Source: a virus
IMG/VR virus record: IMGVR_UViG_3300031746_000132
Coordinates: 1-27,723 of that record
DNA: 27,723 nt
Strand: one strand, 5' to 3'
Position numbers and translations under genes: made by a program. Of this stretch, positions 18,736-27,229 are shown piece after piece. The notes under the pieces are model-generated. The model worked only from the letters and a program-made list of their open reading frames with translations, was not told the DNA's origin and searched no databases. Numbering within the stretch: position 1 is the first letter of the stretch; each line of letters opens with the position of its first letter.

Positions 18736-18886
18736 TTTTAGCCTCACCTTTAATGCGTTCAAAGGTCTTTGATATGTCCGTGTTGACTGAGTTCGTTGGG
18801 GTGTACTGATTATCCAGTACCCATTTACCCCTAGCCTTCAGCCACTCTAAACTCTCTTGACGTTTTTGCTTGTTGTACTTAGTCAT
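18728..18886 (-). CDS. Small basic 52-aa gene
   Basis: ATG at 18886, with GGGAGG eight bases upstream, overlaps the upstream stop by 8 bp. Product starts MTKYNKQKRQESLEWLKARG and continues with KWVLDNQYTPTNSVNTDISKTFERIKGEAKSG. Basic N-terminal helix, no cysteine or metal motif. It is tied to both neighbours by overlaps. Function unknown; a small DNA-binding or accessory protein is possible. Confidence 0.6.
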   Translation of the reverse strand: MTKYNKQKRQESLEWLKARGKWVLDNQYTPTNSVNTDISKTFERIKGEAKSG

Positions 18887-19259
18887 ATACACTACCTCCC
18901 ATTCCACTTTGGATTGTTACCTTGGCTGGCTTTCTAAGTTCTGGTGACTTGTAGCCATATTTTTTAGCTAACAAATCTCCAGCATGGACGATACGCGCAC
19001 CTTCAATCGTAGGCTTAACCACGAATCGTTCTATATCCTCATCAGTTCGTACACGATACGTACCAATGCGAGATATTTGGCTACCCGTCAACACAAGAGC
19101 AATTGACGGCTTTAATCTGTGTAAAATATTGTTCATCTGATTTATGGTTAGGCAGAAGCGCTCCATCATTTGTTGTTTGGTGCAACCCTCGTTGTTACGA
19201 ACATAGTCCAGTATTAAATCTTTATTGGTAGCGGTTTGTATCTTTCTATTGGGTTTCAT
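18879..19259 (-). CDS. Winged-helix DNA-binding protein, first gene of the leftward operon
   Basis: 126 residues. I start at the ATG at 19259, six bases after GGAG. The GTG at 19271 would precede that site. Residues about 10-45 (KDLILDYVRNNEGCTKQQMMERFCLTINQMNNILHRLKP) have the spacing of a winged helix-turn-helix: helix, short turn, recognition helix. A beta wing follows (IALVLTGSQISRIGTYRVR). It faces the Cro/YdaS-like gene across a region with a perfect palindrome and could be a repressor or activator there. It may also simply be a DNA-binding replication accessory. Confidence 0.55.
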   Translation of the reverse strand: MKPNRKIQTATNKDLILDYVRNNEGCTKQQMMERFCLTINQMNNILHRLKPSIALVLTGSQISRIGTYRVRTDEDIERFVVKPTIEGARIVHAGDLLAKKYGYKSPELRKPAKVTIQSGMGGSVYD

Positions 19260-19286
19260 TTTTATCTCCACAGTAAACTAATTGTC

Positions 19287-19379: not shown

Positions 19380-19592
19380 ATGACACTCGAAAAGTTCTTT
19401 GAAGGAAAGCCGCGAGGCTCTAAATTGTTAATGGCTAAGTCGTTGGGTATATCCAAAACTTGGCTCTCACTTGTCATTAGTAGCCGTAAGCAAGCAAGCC
19501 CTGAGTTATGCGTTGAAATCGAGCGCTATACCCGTGGTGCCGTGAGTCGTAGGAATCTACGACCTGACGTATTTGGAGATATAAGAAAATGA
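19380..19592 (+). CDS. Cro/YdaS-like helix-turn-helix repressor
   Basis: 70 residues. The ATG at 19380, with CGGAGA upstream, is preferred. An ATG at 19347 lies inside the -10 box and cannot be the main start. Content: MTLEKFFEGKPRGSKLLMAKSLGISKTWLSLVISSRKQASPELCVEIERYTRGAVSRRNLRPD, a five-helix Cro-type domain whose recognition helix is near KTWLSLVISSRK. The ending (VEIERYT.G.VSR..LRPD) is the hallmark of the YdaS antitoxin/Cro family. First gene of the rightward early block, and it probably controls the divergent promoters. ATGA overlap with the next gene. Confidence 0.7.
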   Translation: MTLEKFFEGKPRGSKLLMAKSLGISKTWLSLVISSRKQASPELCVEIERYTRGAVSRRNLRPDVFGDIRK

Positions 19593-19981
19593 TATGGTAC
19601 AAATTCCACGTTGGTGACTACGTCAACAAGACATCCCACATCTCAGACGCTGAAGACCTGACATACAGGCGTATGCTTGACCTGTATTACATTAGCGAGA
19701 AGCCACTTTCGTTAAATATCGAAACAGTTGCAAATCAAGTCCAGATGGATGTTGACACGGTTGAGTCGGTAATAGATGAGTTCTTTGTTCGTGCAGACGA
19801 TGGCTACCATAACTACAACTGTGATAACGCTATAGCAAAGTACACCGCACAGGTTGCTAACAATGTAGAGCTAGGTCTAAAAGCTAGGGGCAAACCAAAG
19901 CCACATAAGAATACAAAACTAGCGGCAGTTCTAAGGGCACCAAGACTGAAGATAAAACTGAAGGTAAAAGCGAAGGGTTGA
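19589..19981 (+). CDS. DUF1376 replication-associated protein, C-terminus probably shifted out of frame
   Basis: 130 residues. Residues 1-75 (WYKFHVGDYVNKTSH...LTYRRMLDLYYISEKPLSL...VDTVESVIDEFFVRADDGYHN) are the DUF1376 domain found at the N-terminus of phage replication initiators. The last 20 or so residues (LAAVLRAPRLKIKLKVKAKG) are unusual. In the -1 frame the same DNA reads TSGSSKGTKTEDKTEGKSEG and then runs straight into the next gene, as a normal hydrophilic linker would. A frame change near the A run at 19915-19918 would make a tandem DUF1376 fusion. This could be programmed, a mutation or a sequencing error. Confidence 0.65.
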   Translation: MIWYKFHVGDYVNKTSHISDAEDLTYRRMLDLYYISEKPLSLNIETVANQVQMDVDTVESVIDEFFVRADDGYHNYNCDNAIAKYTAQVANNVELGLKARGKPKPHKNTKLAAVLRAPRLKIKLKVKAKG

Positions 19982-19983
19982 GC

Positions 19984-20685
19984 ATGAATTACTATTTTCA
20001 CAATATCGGTGATTATCGTAGAGACACTACCCACCTGTCTTTACTAGAGCATGGATTATATCGTCAGCTATTAGATACTTACTATCTTGACGAGCAACCA
20101 ATTTGCGCTAATCATACGAAACTGATACGTTCGTATAACGTCCGTACAGAGGATGAGCAACAAGCACTAACAAATGTGTTGAATGACTTCTTTTTGTTGA
20201 CAGAAAATGGCTACATACATACACGATGTGACAGTGAGATACTAAAATTTCACCAGAAAAGTGACAAAGCTAGGTCATCGGTAGCAGTCCGTTGGGCTAA
20301 TAAAACCAAGGGTACTGATACGAACGTAATACGAAAGCAATACAAACGTAATACGAAGGCATTACTAGAAACATACGAAGGCAATACTAACCAAGAACCA
20401 ATAACCAATATAAAACCCCCTATACCCCCTTCGTCGAAATTCGACGAGTTCTGGAATTTATGGCCTCAGTCGAAACGCAAGGTCGGCAAGGTTGCGTGTT
20501 TGAAAAAGTGGAAGGCGTCTGGTCTGGATGCGATAGCGCCTAAGATTTTATCTAGCGTACAAGCTCTCAAGACCAGTGAGCAGTGGGTTACAGGGTTTGA
20601 ACCAGCACCGATGACGTACATAAATCAACAACGGTGGGAGGATGAAACGGTAGTTTCGTTTGGTCAAGGTAGGAGAATTCTGTGA
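19984..20685 (+). CDS. DUF1376-family replication protein with C-terminal helicase-loader-like domain
   Basis: 233 residues from the ATG at 19984 (AAGGG eight bases upstream). A TTG at 19978 is too close to that site. The N-terminal DUF1376 domain (YYFHNIGDYRRDTTHLSLLEHGLYRQLLDTYY) is followed by a basic linker. The C-terminus has KFDEFWNLWPQSKRKVGKVACLKKW...EPAPMTYINQQRWED, the domain that ends many phage replication initiators upstream of DnaB-type helicases. Likely role: origin recognition or helicase loading, with the helicase three genes downstream. It is paralogous to the gene before it. Confidence 0.7.
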   Translation: MNYYFHNIGDYRRDTTHLSLLEHGLYRQLLDTYYLDEQPICANHTKLIRSYNVRTEDEQQALTNVLNDFFLLTENGYIHTRCDSEILKFHQKSDKARSSVAVRWANKTKGTDTNVIRKQYKRNTKALLETYEGNTNQEPITNIKPPIPPSSKFDEFWNLWPQSKRKVGKVACLKKWKASGLDAIAPKILSSVQALKTSEQWVTGFEPAPMTYINQQRWEDETVVSFGQGRRIL

Positions 20686-22205: not shown

Positions 22206-22407
22206 AGAAGGAGAAGGGGACGACGAGTTCCGACACCGATGTCTGGTGCGGCACGTGTTGTCCATGAGAATAAATGACCGTGGCGTCGCGTGGAAGTTTG
22301 TTATGGGGTGGAACGAGAAGCACCCCAACTCATGCTTGCAGAATGATGTAGTAAAGCAATGGGAGCGTGGCAACCGTGGTGTCAATGGAGACTGGAGAGA
22401 TGCGTAG
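22189..22407 (+). CDS. Small conserved phage protein (GNRG..GDWR family)
   Basis: 72 residues from the ATG at 22189, the first in-frame start giving a compact product; no good ribosome site is present, so the start is uncertain. It overlaps the helicase by 17 bp. Content: DEFRHRCLVRHVLSMRINDR, then AWKFVMGWNEKHPNS, and the C-terminal VVKQWERGNRGVNGDWRDA. The GNRG-GDWR ending is one I know from small uncharacterised phage proteins of replication regions. No metal or catalytic motif. It overlaps the VRR-NUC gene by 8 bp. Confidence 0.55.
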   Translation: MAEVFKEGEGDDEFRHRCLVRHVLSMRINDRGVAWKFVMGWNEKHPNSCLQNDVVKQWERGNRGVNGDWRDA

Positions 22408-22690
22408 AGCGGCTAAGGCTGACAAGAACCAAGCAGAGATAGTGTCCGCGTTCAGGACGTTTGGCTGTTCTGTGCTACATCTACACCAAGTCGGTGGTGG
22501 CTGTCCTGATATAGCCGTGGGTCTAAACAAAAAGACGGCTCTGGTTGAGATTAAGGACGGAGGTAAGGCTAAGTCTGCACGGGCATTGACAGCAGACGAG
22601 CAGAAGTTTCACGATAGTTGGAAGGGCAGTTTGTTTGTAGTAGAGGACTTGGGCGATGTTATCGCTCTGGTAAAGGGGCTAGAAAAATGA
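22400..22690 (+). CDS. VRR-NUC domain nuclease
   Basis: 96 residues from the ATG at 22400, with a GGAG nine bases upstream. Earlier ATG or GTG codons lack one. The core is GGGCPDIAVGL...KTALVEIKDGGK (PD...ExK) with ALTADEQKFHDSWKGSLFVVEDLGDV after it; Asp in CPDIA and Glu/Lys in VEIK are the metal and catalytic residues. VRR-NUC proteins are PD-(D/E)XK nucleases of Holliday-junction-resolvase type. It could resolve recombination or packaging intermediates. It is coupled to both neighbours. Confidence 0.75.
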   Translation: MRRAAKADKNQAEIVSAFRTFGCSVLHLHQVGGGCPDIAVGLNKKTALVEIKDGGKAKSARALTADEQKFHDSWKGSLFVVEDLGDVIALVKGLEK

Positions 22691-23189: not shown

Positions 23190-23846
23190 ATGAAAGTCTT
23201 GCCCATAAAAAATGAAGAGTCATACCCGTGGTTGCTTGAAAAGCATTATGCAAAACGGATACCACAAATCATGTTTGCGTTTGGTTTATATATCAACGAC
23301 GAGATGAAGGGTGTGGTTACTTTTGGTATACCAGCCTCACCGTCATTGTGTATGGGCATATGTGGACAGGAACACTCCACAATCGTTTTGGAATTGAATA
23401 GGCTTTGCTTGATGGATAACAATAAGAACGAGTCAAGTTTTTTGGTGTCCAACGCTATCAAACTTTTGCCAAGGCCGACGATAGTTGTTTCTTACGCAGA
23501 CAATGCCCAAGGTCACGTTGGATATATTTATCAAGCAACCAATTTTCTATATACAGGATTGTCGGCACATAGGGTTGATTGGACGGTGAAGGGCTTGGAG
23601 CATAAGCATTCAAAGACCATATCTGATGGCATGACACTTGAGTCAATTAAGGCAAAGTACGGTGACGATTTTTACTATACAGAAAGAAGTCGAAAGCACA
23701 GATACATTTTATTTCATGGCTCGAAGACTGATAAGAAAGTTTTGAATAGTAAATTGAAGTATGAGGTGTTGCCGTATCCAAAGGGTGACACAAAAAGATA
23801 TGACTCAGGTGGTGACGTCACAACACAGGGATTATTATTTATATGA
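23190..23846 (+). CDS. Mom-like DNA adenine modification enzyme (GNAT fold)
   Basis: 218 residues. Matches the phage Mu Mom family as I know it: EKHYAKRIP near the start, GVVTFGIPAS (41-50), VLELNRLCLMDN (66-77), FLVSNAIKLLP, and VVSYADNAQGHVGYIYQATN (99-118) followed by FLYTG. Mom converts adenines in phage DNA to N6-carbamoylmethyladenine, protecting it from restriction enzymes. It lies 3' of replication genes, and no com-like regulator is evident. Base composition looks more AT-rich than the helicase region. It overlaps the nuclease gene after it by ATGA. Confidence 0.75.
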   Translation: MKVLPIKNEESYPWLLEKHYAKRIPQIMFAFGLYINDEMKGVVTFGIPASPSLCMGICGQEHSTIVLELNRLCLMDNNKNESSFLVSNAIKLLPRPTIVVSYADNAQGHVGYIYQATNFLYTGLSAHRVDWTVKGLEHKHSKTISDGMTLESIKAKYGDDFYYTERSRKHRYILFHGSKTDKKVLNSKLKYEVLPYPKGDTKRYDSGGDVTTQGLLFI

Positions 23847-24112
23847 ACAACAAGCTAACCGCTGAAGAGCGTGTATACGTTGGCATGGTCAAGGCGCTAC
23901 CCTGTAGCGTCTGCAATGCACCACCACCATCTCAGGCGCATCACTTCAAGCAACACCTCCAATACACCACCATCGCCCTGTGTGAAGACTGTCACAAGGG
24001 CGCATTCAATGGCTGGCATGGGCAGAAGACTATGTGGAGGGTTATGAAGATGGAACAGATTGATGCGTTAGAATTAACTATAAAAAGAGTTATTAAAAAC
24101 ATGAACTTGTAA
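23843..24112 (+). CDS. Ref/HNH-like zinc nuclease
   Basis: 89 residues. C21 and C24 in LPCSVCNAPPPSQAHHFKQH, the paired His33/34, and C47/C50/H51 in ALCEDCHKGAFNGWHG form a compact zinc and HNH-type metal site. AHHF and NGWHG are features of the phage P1 Ref-like family, RecA-dependent nucleases that cut within displacement loops. A role in recombination or as a small endonuclease is likely. Overlaps the Mom-like gene by ATGA. The next 100 bases carry the promoter and leader of the downstream operon. Confidence 0.65.
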   Translation: MNNKLTAEERVYVGMVKALPCSVCNAPPPSQAHHFKQHLQYTTIALCEDCHKGAFNGWHGQKTMWRVMKMEQIDALELTIKRVIKNMNL

Positions 24113-24140
24113 TTATTTTAATTTAATTTGCAATTAATGC

Positions 24141-24170
24141 TTGACACCTTGTTTAATTCTGAATTAATAT
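24141..24170 (+). promoter_or_regulatory. Promoter P-A, TTGACA/TAATAT
   Basis: TTGACA (24141-24146), 18-base spacer, TAATAT (24165-24170), in an AT-rich gap. It is closely related to the promoter at 25300. Expected start near 24177-24178, where a hairpin begins. Confidence 0.7.
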
Positions 24171-24177
24171 ACGTTTA

Positions 24178-24193
24178 CTGGCTAAGGAGTCAG
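24178..24193 (+). promoter_or_regulatory. Hairpin at the predicted transcript 5' end
   Basis: CTGGCT pairs with AGTCAG across an AAGG loop (six pairs including one G-U). It starts at the predicted +1 of P-A. A 5'-terminal stem can protect mRNA from decay or set translation. Stem is weak but matched in position by the hairpin behind the second promoter. Confidence 0.4.
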
Positions 24194-24212
24194 GCATACC
24201 AAGGAGATTCAA

Positions 24213-24521
24213 ATGCAAAACGTACAACTTAAAACAGAATCGGTTCAGTCGCTATCAGCAGACGTACTAGGTGAGTTGCTTGCACAAATCAAAGTGCTGA
24301 CTGACCGCGCTGACTTCATCAAGGATGGTATCAAGGACTCTGCATCAGCAGGTGGCGCTAAGGTGGTAGAGGGCACACTGTTCAAGGCCACATATATCGA
24401 GGCTAATCGCTCCACAGTTGACTACAAGACACTGTGCGCTGACCTAGGTGTGACCGTAGAGCAGTTGGCTAAGTACACCAAGACCACGGCAGTATTCTCA
24501 GTCAAAGTAACTTCACTTTAA
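24213..24521 (+). CDS. Unknown helical phage protein
   Basis: 102 residues. AAGGAG lies ahead of the start, and the gene is the first behind promoter P-A. N-terminal helices (SLSADVLGELLAQIKVLTDRADFIKDGI) are followed by a beta segment (VVEGTLFKATYIEANRSTVD) and a helix with a Lys/Thr end (CADLGVTVEQLAKYTKTTAV). It is soluble with no catalytic motif. Expressed from its own promoter, it is probably needed early or in quantity. A recombination or DNA-binding accessory is possible. Followed five bases later by the zinc-ribbon gene. Confidence 0.55.
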   Translation: MQNVQLKTESVQSLSADVLGELLAQIKVLTDRADFIKDGIKDSASAGGAKVVEGTLFKATYIEANRSTVDYKTLCADLGVTVEQLAKYTKTTAVFSVKVTSL

Positions 24522-24526
24522 GTGAG

Positions 24527-25141
24527 ATGATGATGACCTCAAATCAAATCCGTGGTAACTGCCAGTGCTGTGGTCGTCAACAGGCTGTAGTCGGACGCTT
24601 GATGTCCAAGCACGGCTACACAGTTGATAACGGCTGGTTCAGTGGTGTGTGTTCTGGTCGCAACTACGTTCCGCTACAAGTGAGCCGTGCAGACACAGAC
24701 ATTATCGTTGCTAAAGTCCGCGATGACATACCTAAGTTGATTGCTCATGCTGAAGGAGTCAAGGCAGGCGTGATTACTCCAAAGACAATCAAACTTCGCA
24801 TAGGCTTTGAGATTCCATTTGCCGAAGGAAGCGAACGCCAACAAATGACAGCGTGTAACTCACTGGAGTGGAGTCTCCGTAGTCGCGCCCGTTCTGGTGA
24901 ACAGTTCGCCGACAGCATGGAAGCGCTTGCCAACAAAATCCACGGTACTGCATTGATTGAAGTTGCCAAGAAGGAAGCCCCAGAGTACATCAGCATCGGT
25001 CAACAGAAGTCTGACAACGGCACGATTTACACCTGTACATCAGTCGAAGGCGCTCGTGTGTACCACAAAGCGCAGAAAGGCGACAAAACCTTCAAGGGAT
25101 GGACTGGTTGCCAAGCATGGAGAAAGATGGAGGCAGTTTAA
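24527..25141 (+). CDS. Unknown protein with N-terminal zinc-cluster-like segment
   Basis: 204 residues. The start has a choice of three consecutive ATG codons; AAGTGAG precedes them. Residues 10-45 (GNCQCCGRQQAVVGR...WFSGVCSG) have Cys12, Cys14, Cys15 and Cys42 spaced for a small metal site. Beyond it are charged helices (IIVAKVRDDIPKLIAHAEGV; SRARSGEQFADSMEALANKI) and a C-terminal DNGTIYTCTSVEGARVYHKA...FKGWTGCQAWRKM with two more Cys. I recall this phage family but not a function. Single-strand or nucleic-acid binding is a guess. Confidence 0.55.
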   Translation: MMMTSNQIRGNCQCCGRQQAVVGRLMSKHGYTVDNGWFSGVCSGRNYVPLQVSRADTDIIVAKVRDDIPKLIAHAEGVKAGVITPKTIKLRIGFEIPFAEGSERQQMTACNSLEWSLRSRARSGEQFADSMEALANKIHGTALIEVAKKEAPEYISIGQQKSDNGTIYTCTSVEGARVYHKAQKGDKTFKGWTGCQAWRKMEAV

Positions 25142-25146
25142 ATAAC

Positions 25147-25162
25147 GGGGGCGGAAGCCCCC
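25147..25162 (+). promoter_or_regulatory. Intergenic hairpin 1, GGAA tetraloop
   Basis: GGGGGC-GGAA-GCCCCC, six perfect pairs closing a GNRA-type loop. It lies five bases after a stop and two bases before the AGGAGA of the next small gene. No U-tract, so not an intrinsic terminator. Confidence 0.75.
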
Positions 25163-25175
25163 ATAGGAGACCGCT

Positions 25176-25310
25176 ATGACCCCAAAGCATGACACATACA
25201 TACTCAAGATTAAGAACATCATACACAGCAAGCCATTGTTGGTAATTGTTGGCCTGAGACAGGAGAGACAAATATATTTAACTTTTTTGAATAAAGTGCT
25301 TGACAAGTAG
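25176..25310 (+). CDS. 44-aa small gene overlapping a promoter
   Basis: ATG at 25176 with AGGAGA five bases upstream, directly after hairpin 1. Product starts MTPKHDTYILKIKNIIHSKP and continues with LLVIVGLRQERQIYLTFLNKVLDK; basic with a short hydrophobic patch, not a clear membrane segment. Its last bases are the -35 box of the following promoter, so it is either a true small gene or a frame that happens to be open. Function unknown. Confidence 0.45.
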   Translation: MTPKHDTYILKIKNIIHSKPLLVIVGLRQERQIYLTFLNKVLDK

Positions 25311-25329
25311 TTTAACTCCATATTAATAT
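25300..25329 (+). promoter_or_regulatory. Promoter P-B, TTGACA/TAATAT
   Basis: TTGACA (25300-25305), 18-base spacer, TAATAT (25324-25329). Over 40 bases it shares 31 with P-A, including identical spacer length, GTTTAA in the spacer and the ATTAATATAC core. It drives the small-gene cluster from 25378. Confidence 0.7.
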
Positions 25330-25336
25330 ACATTCA

Positions 25337-25352
25337 CTGACACATTGGTCAG
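25337..25352 (+). promoter_or_regulatory. Hairpin at the predicted 5' end behind P-B
   Basis: CTGAC and GTCAG (25337-25341 and 25348-25352) around a six-base loop, starting at the predicted +1 of P-B. Same location relative to the -10 as in P-A, with the stem kept though bases differ. Confidence 0.4.
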
Positions 25353-25377
25353 GCTAGCGAAGACAGGGAGAAACGAA

Positions 25378-25605
25378 ATGAATACAGAGAAACAAGATTG
25401 GGATTTATTAAATCATATTGGTGCTGCATTACGGGATGCACAACAATATCAAAATGAAGTAATGACAAAACATGATAAATGTTGGGTTTTTCTAAGAAAG
25501 AAAGCTAAACAAGCCACAGAAAAAATGGAAGCGGAACACATAGAAGCATGGAATTTGATGATAGCCAATCGCGCAGCACGTTTCTTACAGGGAGAATCAA
25601 AATGA
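25378..25605 (+). CDS. Small unknown AT-rich gene
   Basis: 75 residues. ATG at 25378 after AGGGAG is preferred over an upstream in-frame start near 25345, which lies in the leader. Helical and charged (DLLNHIGAALRDAQQYQNEV; KKAKQATEKMEAEHIEAWNL). Codon use is more AT-rich than its neighbours. First gene of the P-B unit; coupled to the next by ATGA. No family seen. Confidence 0.55.
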   Translation: MNTEKQDWDLLNHIGAALRDAQQYQNEVMTKHDKCWVFLRKKAKQATEKMEAEHIEAWNLMIANRAARFLQGESK

Positions 25606-25895
25606 AATTCATTGTTACCGACAAAGCATCAGGAGAGCAAAGAAAATATCGCGCAACTGATTGGTCAGGTTTTGAGAATACTGTCCATGAGATTTACAGG
25701 TTTGGTGACCCTGAGTCTGAGATTGAATTTATCGTTGAGGGCAAAGTGGTTAATCTGGATGGCGCTCTCAAAGCCGCCGCCTCGGCTCGTCAGGCATGGG
25801 AAGATAAACGTGAACTTACCAAAAGACCAATTAGGGTTCTTATTGGGGCGAGCAGCCTACCTAGCAACTATCGCACCGTTTGGGTAAACAAATAA
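25602..25895 (+). CDS. Small unknown protein
   Basis: 97 residues from the ATG overlapping the previous stop (ATGA), with GGGAG upstream. Beta start (MKFIVTDKASGEQRKYRATD) and a mixed middle (DPESEIEFIVEGKVVNLDG), then a basic helix (RQAWEDKRELTKRPIRVLIG). The second open frame in the same stretch is a shadow. No catalytic motif or known domain. Followed by hairpin 2. Confidence 0.55.
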   Translation: MKFIVTDKASGEQRKYRATDWSGFENTVHEIYRFGDPESEIEFIVEGKVVNLDGALKAAASARQAWEDKRELTKRPIRVLIGASSLPSNYRTVWVNK

Positions 25896-25899
25896 CCAC

Positions 25900-25915
25900 A
25901 GGGGCGCAAGCCCCT
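25900..25915 (+). promoter_or_regulatory. Intergenic hairpin 2, GCAA tetraloop
   Basis: A-GGGGC-GCAA-GCCCC-T: six pairs with a GNRA loop, four bases after a stop and three before AGGAG. Core identical to hairpin 3. Confidence 0.75.
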
Positions 25916-25931
25916 AACAGGAGAAAATAAA

Positions 25932-26135
25932 ATGCAAAAGACATACTTGATACACCCCGACACAGGAAGCATAGGAACGCGAGGCGAGTGGTTAGCGGAG
26001 ATGCCTACTTGGGAGGTATACACGCTAGAGGGCGGATATTTTGACACGCCAGAACAGGAGCAAGCGGAGCGGCAGCGGCAGTTCGATGCTTTGGTCGAGG
26101 TCAAGAGAGTAGATGGAGAATGGGTCGAGGTTTAA
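25932..26135 (+). CDS. Small unknown acidic protein
   Basis: 67 residues, ATG with AGGAG eight bases upstream. Beta-like N-terminus (TYLIHPDTGSIGTRGEWLAE, then WEVYTLEGGYFDTP), Glu/Gln-rich helix (EQEQAERQRQFDALVEVKRV) and a strand. No domain recognised. It lies between hairpins 2 and 3, so each of these small genes is preceded by its own structured leader. Confidence 0.55.
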   Translation: MQKTYLIHPDTGSIGTRGEWLAEMPTWEVYTLEGGYFDTPEQEQAERQRQFDALVEVKRVDGEWVEV

Positions 26136-26140
26136 ACTAC

Positions 26141-26154
26141 GGGGCGCAAGCCCC
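26141..26154 (+). promoter_or_regulatory. Intergenic hairpin 3, GCAA tetraloop
   Basis: GGGGC-GCAA-GCCCC, five pairs with a GNRA loop, five bases after a stop and six before AGGAG. Core identical to hairpin 2; no U-tract. Confidence 0.75.
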
Positions 26155-26170
26155 ACTAAAGGAGAACAAC

Positions 26171-26455
26171 ATGGACATAGAATTTGATGCAGTTGTAGCA
26201 GACGACCTAGAGGTCACAGTCGAGGGAGAATGCTCAGGCGATAACTCACGCCACTTTGATTTTGAGTTGACCAAGGTTTATATAACCACAGATATGCGTG
26301 CCAACAATATACTTTACCTACTGTCGACGCTAGACAAGGACATCCTAGAGGGCAAGCTCTGGGACGCGTGCCACCTAGCCATTGAAGATAGGAGACGCGA
26401 CGCCGCAGAGGCCAGAGAAGACGCTAGACGCGATAACATGATGGTTGGAGGATAA
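26171..26455 (+). CDS. Small unknown acidic protein with charged helical tail
   Basis: 94 residues from the ATG after AGGAG; the longer frame starts before the hairpin and is unlikely. The N-terminal half is strand-rich and acidic (DIEFDAVVADDLEVTVEGEC; HFDFELTKVYITTD). The tail is a long Arg/Glu/Asp/Ala helix (IEDRRRDAAEAREDARRDNM). No motif. Ends 15 bases before the DruA-like gene. Confidence 0.55.
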   Translation: MDIEFDAVVADDLEVTVEGECSGDNSRHFDFELTKVYITTDMRANNILYLLSTLDKDILEGKLWDACHLAIEDRRRDAAEAREDARRDNMMVGG

Positions 26456-26470
26456 AAGGATAAAGCCAAA

Positions 26471-27229
26471 ATGGGGAAAGTTTACTCTAACCGACAATGT
26501 AGCACGTGCCCCACTATTGGTACGGTGATAGAGTCATGGGGGACTTACTACTGCCGTACTTGCTACGAAGCCAGACCTAAACGAGCCAACGGAAATGGCG
26601 GTATGGTATTTAAGGGGGCAAAAATTGAAGACTATGAACACGATTCTGTCGGTGTGACGCTGGAGAGGTGCAAGAAAAGCCACCCAATTTTTTGCGACTT
26701 ATACCTATCTCATTACCCCGGAAGCAAGGGGATTATGGGTAGGAGTCTGAACTATTTGGTAAGACTAGACGGTATCGTGGCTGGAATTATAGGCGCGAAT
26801 AGCCCTCCGCTCAATTACAAAATTTTCAGGAAGTTTTTTGAAACAGGTGATGAAAATATGTTTCTCAATAATAATGTTTACAGGATGATAAATAACACCA
26901 AGAACCTTGGTACACAAGTTCTTAGAGCTTTTCGCAATACTGTTGCACAAGACTACGAAGATTCTTATGGGGTCAAAATTCTTGGGCTTTGCACTTTTGT
27001 AGAGCCTCCGAGGAGTGGGGCTATTTATCTAGCCGATAACTGGACGTGCCTTGGTGAAACACAAGGAAAGTCGGTGCGAAAACGCGACATGAGTACATGG
27101 GAAAATAAAGAATGGTCACAGGGTACGAAAAAACTTATTTTTGCAATTAAGGCAAAGCCACATAACGTAAAGAAGATGTGGCGCGCTGGTGTTGCAATAC
27201 ACAATATACAACAGGAGTTAGCGATATGA
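26471..27229 (+). CDS. DruA/DUF4338-like protein with N-terminal zinc ribbon
   Basis: 252 residues. Residues 10-31 form a zinc ribbon (C10/C13 and C28/C31). The rest follows the DUF4338 pattern known from DruA of Druantia systems: LNYLVRLDGIVAGIIGANSP, NNVYRMINNTKNLGTQVLRAF (133-153), and TFVEPPRSGAIYLADNW (175-191), then CLGETQGKS. The motif GAIYLADNW aligns with GYIYQATNF of the Mom-like protein, and the preceding segments match in order, so both may share a GNAT-type fold. Molecular role of DruA is not established; here, in a phage, DNA modification or anti-defence is a fair inference. Base composition is AT-rich relative to replication genes. Confidence 0.65.
   Translation: MGKVYSNRQCSTCPTIGTVIESWGTYYCRTCYEARPKRANGNGGMVFKGAKIEDYEHDSVGVTLERCKKSHPIFCDLYLSHYPGSKGIMGRSLNYLVRLDGIVAGIIGANSPPLNYKIFRKFFETGDENMFLNNNVYRMINNTKNLGTQVLRAFRNTVAQDYEDSYGVKILGLCTFVEPPRSGAIYLADNWTCLGETQGKSVRKRDMSTWENKEWSQGTKKLIFAIKAKPHNVKKMWRAGVAIHNIQQELAI

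Follow-up and report, generated by a model that had tools for sequence, protein, structure and literature searches.

The 27,723-base virus record IMGVR_UViG_3300031746_000132 from IMG/VR (the window, analysed here at full length), which contains tail, virion, and replication genes, raises the question of whether a phage carries, beside its Mom gene, a second enzyme of the same descent and, if so, what such an enzyme might do. A first-pass annotation had singled out a Mom-like gene at 23190-23846 (218 amino acids) and a DruA-like gene at 26471-27229 (252 amino acids), aligned four peptide blocks between their products, and proposed that the cores of DUF4338 (DruA) and Mom are distant relatives of one fold. 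Both open reading frames (ORFs) are found at these positions, 2.6 kb apart, with all of the quoted peptides, and the proposed relationship, within the GNAT fold, is borne out by our profile and structure comparisons.

By its sequence, the gene at 23190-23846 is a bona fide Mom gene. Its product passes the curated cut-off of the Mom family PF25680 (E 3.9e-39), matches phrog_1384 at 7.2e-55 and the Mu Mom structure 8bv8 in the PDB at E 6.6e-11, and carries the Mom-family residues S83, R71, D104, Y114, and N118. A match to the NCBIfam family XF1762 (NF045478) at 5.9e-4, below the cut-off, perhaps marks another distant member. Mom is described as a GNAT in passages of PMC7824862, which are also a source for the modification of adenine at N6 by Mu Mom.

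Relatives of the second protein were collected with a three-row seed, which returned 18 viral and at least 363 bacterial relatives; the 80 best bacterial loci were kept and yielded 69 ORFs (mostly repeated Acidithiobacillus copies and short matches being omitted), of which 47 were aligned after the removal of long fusions and truncated proteins (A4). An alignment of 11 phage proteins with the window protein first (A2) served as a query that found 256 viral loci, the best 80 of which were kept. Further alignments comprised 37 phage proteins, left from 61 by an 85% identity filter; 33 broader phage proteins (A7), picked separately from the 37-row alignment; 59 rows led by the window protein and used for folding (A3); and 19 diverse Moms, including that of Mu (A5).

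The product of 26471-27229 falls short of the cut-off of PF14236 (DruA, formerly DUF4338; Table 1) and has no match to PF25680, which its relatives L096 and L094 match at 19.6 and 17.4 bits, both below the cut-off. Run over 39 records with the DruA-like gene, PF25680 gave nine such sub-cut-off matches, and all nine lie on DruA-like genes, as judged by coordinates. Since L096 and L094 pass the PF14236 cut-off (39.0 and 38.3 bits, L096 thus scoring on both Pfam profiles) and the 11 phage rows match bacterial DUF4338 in hhalign with a probability of 99.5 and E 2.7e-23, we call the window protein a sister branch of DUF4338 rather than a filed member. The 37-row phage alignment matched bacterial DUF4338 at E 4.5e-33, and the window protein itself aligned directly with DUF4338 proteins of Thiodictyon plasmids (BLASTP, 4e-14 and 5e-12). 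Exact peptide patterns taken from the window protein alone retrieved no close relatives in viral or genome contigs. Among named phages, tblastn found nothing for the window protein, whether the limit was E ≤ 0.01 or E ≤ 10, for a bacterial DUF4338 protein at E ≤ 1, or for the phage relatives L312, L294, and L286 at E ≤ 0.001. PDB sequence searches with DUF4338 profiles retrieved only uS14-like zinc ribbons and chance matches, with no DUF4338 protein, and matches of the single window protein to PRP8 and endolysin (E 0.04 to 1) were discarded as chance.

Direct comparison of the two window proteins by BLASTP gave E 3.0 and no alignment; the PHROG Mom profile touches the second protein at residues 171-206 (E 0.01), the block noticed in the first-pass annotation. 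Compared as families by hhalign, the 11 phage rows matched Mom with a probability of 91.9 and E 7.1e-7, the 47 bacterial DUF4338 rows with 91.5 and 8.8e-7, and the 33 broader phage rows with 96.8 and 2.1e-10 over 154 columns. As the phage and bacterial sets have no sequences in common, both match Mom at the same places independently. Column-shuffled Mom profiles gave best values of E 0.05 and 0.03 (60 shuffles each, one of them invalid) and, in a further control, 0.02 (99 of 100 shuffles valid), and the best values for 23 unrelated phage families were 0.012 against the 11 phage rows, 0.031 against bacterial DUF4338, 0.0083 against Mom, and 0.11 against the 37-row phage alignment; none of these controls fell below 0.008. 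Random halves of the Mom alignment kept the match in 20 of 20 cases against both the 11 phage rows (E 4.5e-8 to 9.2e-5) and the bacterial rows (E 2.1e-9 to 3.0e-4). The signal depends on diverse families: single Moms ranged from E 8.8e-6 to 0.11 against the profiles, the window Mom being one of the weakest (0.079 and 0.089), and a narrow alignment of close Mom homologs gave 0.021 against the 11 phage rows and 1.7e-5 against the 37 rows.

These matches could in principle reflect the generic GNAT fold alone, with no special kinship between Mom and DUF4338. Of 30 single GNATs used as controls, the best gave E 0.0038 with bacterial DUF4338, a stronger match than that of several Moms taken singly, while a 30-row acetyltransferase alignment (PF00583; a weak control, because gappy) matched none of the 11 phage rows, the bacterial rows, and Mom (E ≥ 0.12), as against 7e-7 to 2e-10 for Mom. 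Structural comparison bears on the same point. The window protein, modeled with AlphaFold2 (AF2) from the 59-row alignment (mean predicted local distance difference test score [pLDDT] 83.0, predicted template modeling score [pTM] 0.69), is predicted to adopt a GNAT fold, and its best match in a Foldseek search of the PDB was Mu Mom (8bv8_B, first of 776, E 6.5e-6); VIA-align likewise placed 8bv8_A at Z 15.1 (root-mean-square deviation 4.2, 164 aligned), with the next entry at 13.2. The bacterial DUF4338 protein L102, folded from the bacterial alignment with phage sequences excluded (pLDDT 91.4), was also matched first by 8bv8 in both Foldseek (5.7e-7) and VIA-align (Z 14.4 against 12.7 for the next). 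Among predicted viral structures, the 'Mom' of Salmonella phage FSL SP-031 was the best functionally named entry, at rank 2, behind an unnamed haloarchaeal virus protein. The structural matches listed are Mom and acetyl- or acyltransferases that are GNATs. GNAT structures are broadly alike, with Z of at least 8 for 742 of 998 chains, and Mom and DUF4338 have each been published separately as GNATs, the latter as a domain fused to DndF in passages of PMC10853773, all of which would suit a generic likeness. Against it stand the profile values, the first rank of Mom in both structure searches, and the HY and N-x-x-[ST] blocks common to the two families. We consider a shared fold without special kinship very improbable and are highly confident that Mom and DUF4338 are kin; the comparisons also support a closer relationship between the two than of either with the remaining GNATs tested. 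No paper linking Mom with DUF4338 was found in the open-access literature, which excludes most subscription journals.

At the level of single residues, three of the four blocks proposed earlier were reproduced exactly by the profile-profile alignment, namely GVVTFGIPAS with GIIGANSPPL (Mom G41 = G105), PTIVVSYAD with VKILGLCTFVE (S101 = T175, D104 = E178), and GYIYQATNF with GAIYLADNW (G111 = G183, Y114 = Y186, N118 = N190). The remaining block, VLELNRLCL with NNVYRMINN, had been set about three residues out, as N134 pairs with L69. Three shared features had been overlooked: a His-Tyr pair (Mom H19-Y20; H81-Y82), an N-x-x-[ST] motif (Mom S83; T148), and a C-terminal Lys. Within the block PRNSES, a single Ser-to-Ala substitution sets the 8bv8 chain apart from Mu Mom; the title of the entry names the inactive mutant S124A, and S83 of the window Mom is the equivalent of the mutated serine. 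The same position is serine in every bacterial row (S198), with the register agreed in 30 of 30 resamplings, and threonine or serine in the phage rows, where the register of the 11-row alignment agreed in 25 of 30. Mom Y114 (DUF4338 Y237, 47/47) and N118 (N241, 47/47) are invariant throughout, Mom S101 corresponds to T225 of DUF4338, and HY pairs with HY in the bacterial rows (His agreed in 30 of 30 resamplings). In the full alignment, DUF4338 R184 (47/47) falls opposite Mom R71 (19/19); phage proteins have Arg at 136 (16 of 37) or 138 (18 of 37), never at both, for 34 of 37 in total. Read from the alignments, the signature common to Mom and DUF4338 opens with His-Tyr at the first helix and continues with a hairpin of two strands that closes on G-[IV]-[IV], an Arg on the strand after it, and N-x-x-[ST] where the next long helix begins; [ST]-x-x-[DE], then G-x-x-Y-x-A-x-N-[WF], and finally the C-terminal Lys complete it.

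Mu Mom (8bv8, named a methylcarbamoylase) and the window protein thus have the GNAT core in common over the whole domain, together with HY, N-x-x-S/T, S/T-x-x-D/E, GxxYxAxN, and the C-terminal Lys, and structural alignments of Mu Mom with the DUF4338 models show 10-16% identity. Unlike Mu Mom, the window protein has Thr for Ser, does not reach the PF25680 cut-off, and possesses an N-terminal zinc ribbon. Ahead of the TFVE strand it also has a longer helix, together with a segment containing YG, both absent from Mom. The transposon-associated bacterial DUF4338 (PF14236) proteins carry the same motif set with the Ser kept in 47 of 47. They have an N-terminal helical region, which the phage forms lack, and are sometimes fused to transposases; the phage forms may have a zinc ribbon, and CxxC-x(10,20)-CxxC is present in 13 of 37 of them.

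The genes surrounding the phage relatives were surveyed in 84 loci, four of which are duplicate records (L271=L093, L272=L094, L273=L095, L275=L096), and Mom and methylase genes were counted in 39 records, each roughly 15 kb long or longer, taken from the 80 viral loci. Mom was found above the cut-off in 8 of these 39; a rough yardstick, obtained by a different method, is the 275 of 50,697 named phage records in which tblastn found relatives of the window Mom. N6_N4_Mtase genes occur in 10 of the 39, a count without a matched background. The stop of the DruA-like gene and the start of Mom overlap by one base in L294, L300, and L303, and the two ORFs share 8 to 29 bases in L311, L299, and L302, while 810 bases separate them in L295. 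In all, Mom and DruA-like genes co-occur in five lineages, including L093, L278, L282 (20 kb apart), and the window, the compared pairs being at most 53% identical. Mom itself also occurs in tandem, with two or three copies per phage (L333:288-2539; L294:9768-11322; L295:3052-4609). On the bacterial side, transposase proteins of three kinds occur as fusions with DUF4338 domains: ISAs1-type DDE (L109), Tn5-like (L121, L150, L174), and IS66 TnpB (L158).

The overlap with Mom in one lineage would also fit a noncatalytic or regulatory partner, a diverged paralog that aids the DNA binding or site choice of Mom, as would the zinc ribbon of some phage forms and the Thr in place of Ser in 29 of 37. 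We consider such a partner improbable, given that the residues at the catalytic positions are polar and conserved (Y186 and N190 in 37 of 37), that bacterial forms retain the Ser, that many records have no visible Mom, and that, among the matches listed, the Mom profile is hit by DUF4338 genes only.

We know of no demonstrated activity for DUF4338. By analogy with Mom, the product of 26471-27229 is probably a working DNA base modifier, a reading that we favor with moderate confidence because of its nearest relative, its conserved catalytic positions, the Mom gene pairs, and the transposase fusions. Mom and DUF4338 very probably descend from one GNAT ancestor, and the encoded protein would consist of a zinc ribbon followed by a GNAT acyltransferase domain of Mom type, on the DUF4338 branch. 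By the same analogy, the enzyme would most likely take a small acyl-type group from a donor linked to coenzyme A, or a similar one, and transfer it to an exocyclic base amine of DNA, for which adenine N6 would be the first guess. The phage would then possess two base-modifying enzymes differing in target or timing, and its modified DNA may be shielded from host nucleases. The earlier proposal that this phage carries two DNA-targeting members is plausible in light of the residues at the catalytic positions and the pairing with Mom in other phages.

Several observations weigh against this reading. Other GNATs lie structurally close behind Mom, and the window protein has Thr in place of the key Ser. 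At position 178, only 22 of 37 phage rows have an acid (E or D), and the pairing of Arg with Mom R71 is unstable, recurring in 7 of 30 resamplings for the bacterial rows and in 3 of 30 for R138. Seven of the records that pair the two genes (L294, L295, L299, L300, L302, L303, and L311) form one lineage, with DruA-like proteins at least 77% identical. Furthermore, 31 of the 39 records with a DruA-like gene have no Mom above the cut-off (records may be fragments), and PF14236 was found in none of the 42 Mom-phage records scanned (of 80), so the pairing is not obligatory. In L090, the DruA-like gene sits among terminase genes and not modification genes. At that locus (L090:3652-5861), a terminase-large-like ORF follows the DruA-like one with an overlap of four bases, and the first nine residues of the two are identical.

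A substrate other than DNA would leave the Mom-related GNAT assignment intact and redirect its activity to a small molecule, to a host protein (RNA polymerase, for example), or to RNA, whether tRNA or mRNA. Many amines serve as GNAT substrates; in Foldseek, the bacterial DUF4338 model finds the tRNA(Met) cytidine acetyltransferase TmcA at rank eight; the zinc ribbon is similar to the one in ribosomal uS14; and passages of PMC7824862 describe acetylation of RNA polymerase by a phage GNAT. The DNA modifier Mom is nonetheless nearest by profile, and by structure in both models, and the genes pair with Mom while bacterial relatives are fused to DNA transposases; we consider a non-DNA substrate unlikely, with an appreciable chance of being right.

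The weak match to the PF14236 'DruA' profile brings in a further alternative, a piece of the Druantia defense system captured by the phage as a decoy, an inhibitor, or an anti-phage defense gene. Type I DruA of Druantia (PADLOC PDLC00002) belongs to the same Pfam family as the window protein, and passages of PMC7251935 list it with unknown function; the Druantia helicase is the subject of PMC12458937, as far as its passages show. The window protein matched no PADLOC family at E ≤ 10. The longest ORF of the window, which may be a fragment, encodes 667 amino acids, against 1858 for the DruE of L262, so DruE is absent from it. In L262, a genuine Druantia DruA (PADLOC 1e-196) lies beside DruD and DruE. 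In this protein and four related proteins of about 400 amino acids, Gly replaces Ser/Thr in five of five (LGGKL; LCGKL in L261) and W-S-x-P replaces HY, with the Tyr kept. The profile of this branch matches DUF4338 (6.9e-11) and the 37-row phage set (2.7e-11) but not Mom (E 0.045). With the Ser and HY positions lost and no match to Mom, it is the phage and transposon branch that has these residues in common with Mom, and DruA, taken in the Druantia sense, is a misleading name for the gene. A captured Druantia piece has next to no chance of being the right account, and nothing was found that points to the counter-defense role suggested earlier, except by way of DNA modification.

The DruA-type proteins also occur in a common three-gene row in gammaproteobacterial contigs (L261:4813-8901, L263:3284-7400, L264:6555-10731, and L265:9894-14000), consisting of the DruA-type protein of about 400 amino acids, a protein of about 395 amino acids with unknown function (424 in L261), and a protein of about 570-595 amino acids, HerA-like where scanned (L264). 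DruE is not present in the stretches of these four contigs that were read, and the row is possibly an undescribed defense operon.

Passages of PMC12774648 name, by Phold, DruA-like proteins in six Synechococcus phages, that is, phage proteins structurally resembling DruA, and these passages do not mention Mom. One cyanophage protein, CYVG_00044 of S-SSM6a, matches the 33-row phage profile at E 3.5e-6, and S-PRM1, one of the phages with a Phold DruA-like call, gave no match to that profile. CYVG_00044 (L339:1394-2536; about 380 amino acids) lies between clamp-loader genes, and gp050 of S-PRM1 (L335:40478-41629), of similar size and in the same place, is perhaps the DruA-like gene called by Phold. 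S-SSM6a carries a Mom gene elsewhere in its genome.

Table 1. Features of the Mom gene and the DUF4338-related gene in the window, with the basis of each assignment
Feature	Position	Strand	Basis
Mom-family DNA-modification gene, 218 amino acids	23190..23846	+	PF25680 134.9 bits, cut-off 27.1
Mom H19-Y20, start of GNAT domain; pairs with H-Y of DUF4338	23244..23249	+	alignment
Mom S83, equivalent of the Mu serine changed to Ala in 8bv8	23436..23438	+	Ser 18/19, Thr 1/19 Mom rows
Mom S101-Y-A-D104 block	23490..23501	+	alignment
Mom GYIYQATNF block, residues 111-119	23520..23546	+	Y114, N118 in 19/19 rows
Predicted DUF4338-related Mom-like GNAT gene, 252 amino acids	26471..27229	+	PF14236 22.3 bits, cut-off 27; hhalign to DUF4338 and Mom
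N-terminal CxxC-CxxC zinc ribbon, residues 10-31, weakly like ribosomal uS14	26498..26563	+	best E 0.012
GNAT domain, residues 59-231, superposed on Mu Mom	26645..27163	+	AF2 model
H81-Y82	26711..26716	+	H 11/11 (A2); H 31/37, Y82 37/37 (37 phage rows)
T148, at the Mu Mom serine position	26912..26914	+	Thr 29, Ser 8 of 37 phage relatives; Ser 47/47 bacterial DUF4338
T175-F-V-E178, equivalent of Mom SYAD	26993..27004	+	alignment
GAIYLADNW block, residues 183-191	27017..27043	+	G183, Y186, A188, D189, N190, W191 each 37/37
K221, invariant lysine of the last strand	27131..27133	+	37/37

Elsewhere in the window, two overlapping ORFs at 19589-20685 each match one and the same set of primosomal-protein families, in the N-terminal part of these, which gives the impression of a duplicated domain, and the minus-strand ORF at 18879-19271 shows a weak match to a Ren-like exclusion protein (phrog_142, 2.6e-6). 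For the gene at 22367-22690, which lies upstream of Mom, the idea of a nuclease was dropped, as Pfam gave no match.

The consequences reach beyond this phage, as DUF4338 is a large family, with at least 363 bacterial relatives and 256 viral loci. Tentatively, and with more doubt than confidence, we suggest that the phage and transposon DUF4338 proteins may form a second Mom-type clade that writes a novel base mark, that transposons of at least three types may fuse it to their transposase to mark their own or target DNA, and that the DruA of Druantia may derive from this clade through loss of the catalytic Ser, perhaps having turned from a writer into a reader of such marks. If DUF4338 is the sister of Mom with a Mom-like active site, it would have a base-modification activity that can be tested and, in N-x-x-[ST], a residue that can be mutated; the overlapping Mom genes would be its natural partner, and there would be a reason for its travel with transposases and phages.

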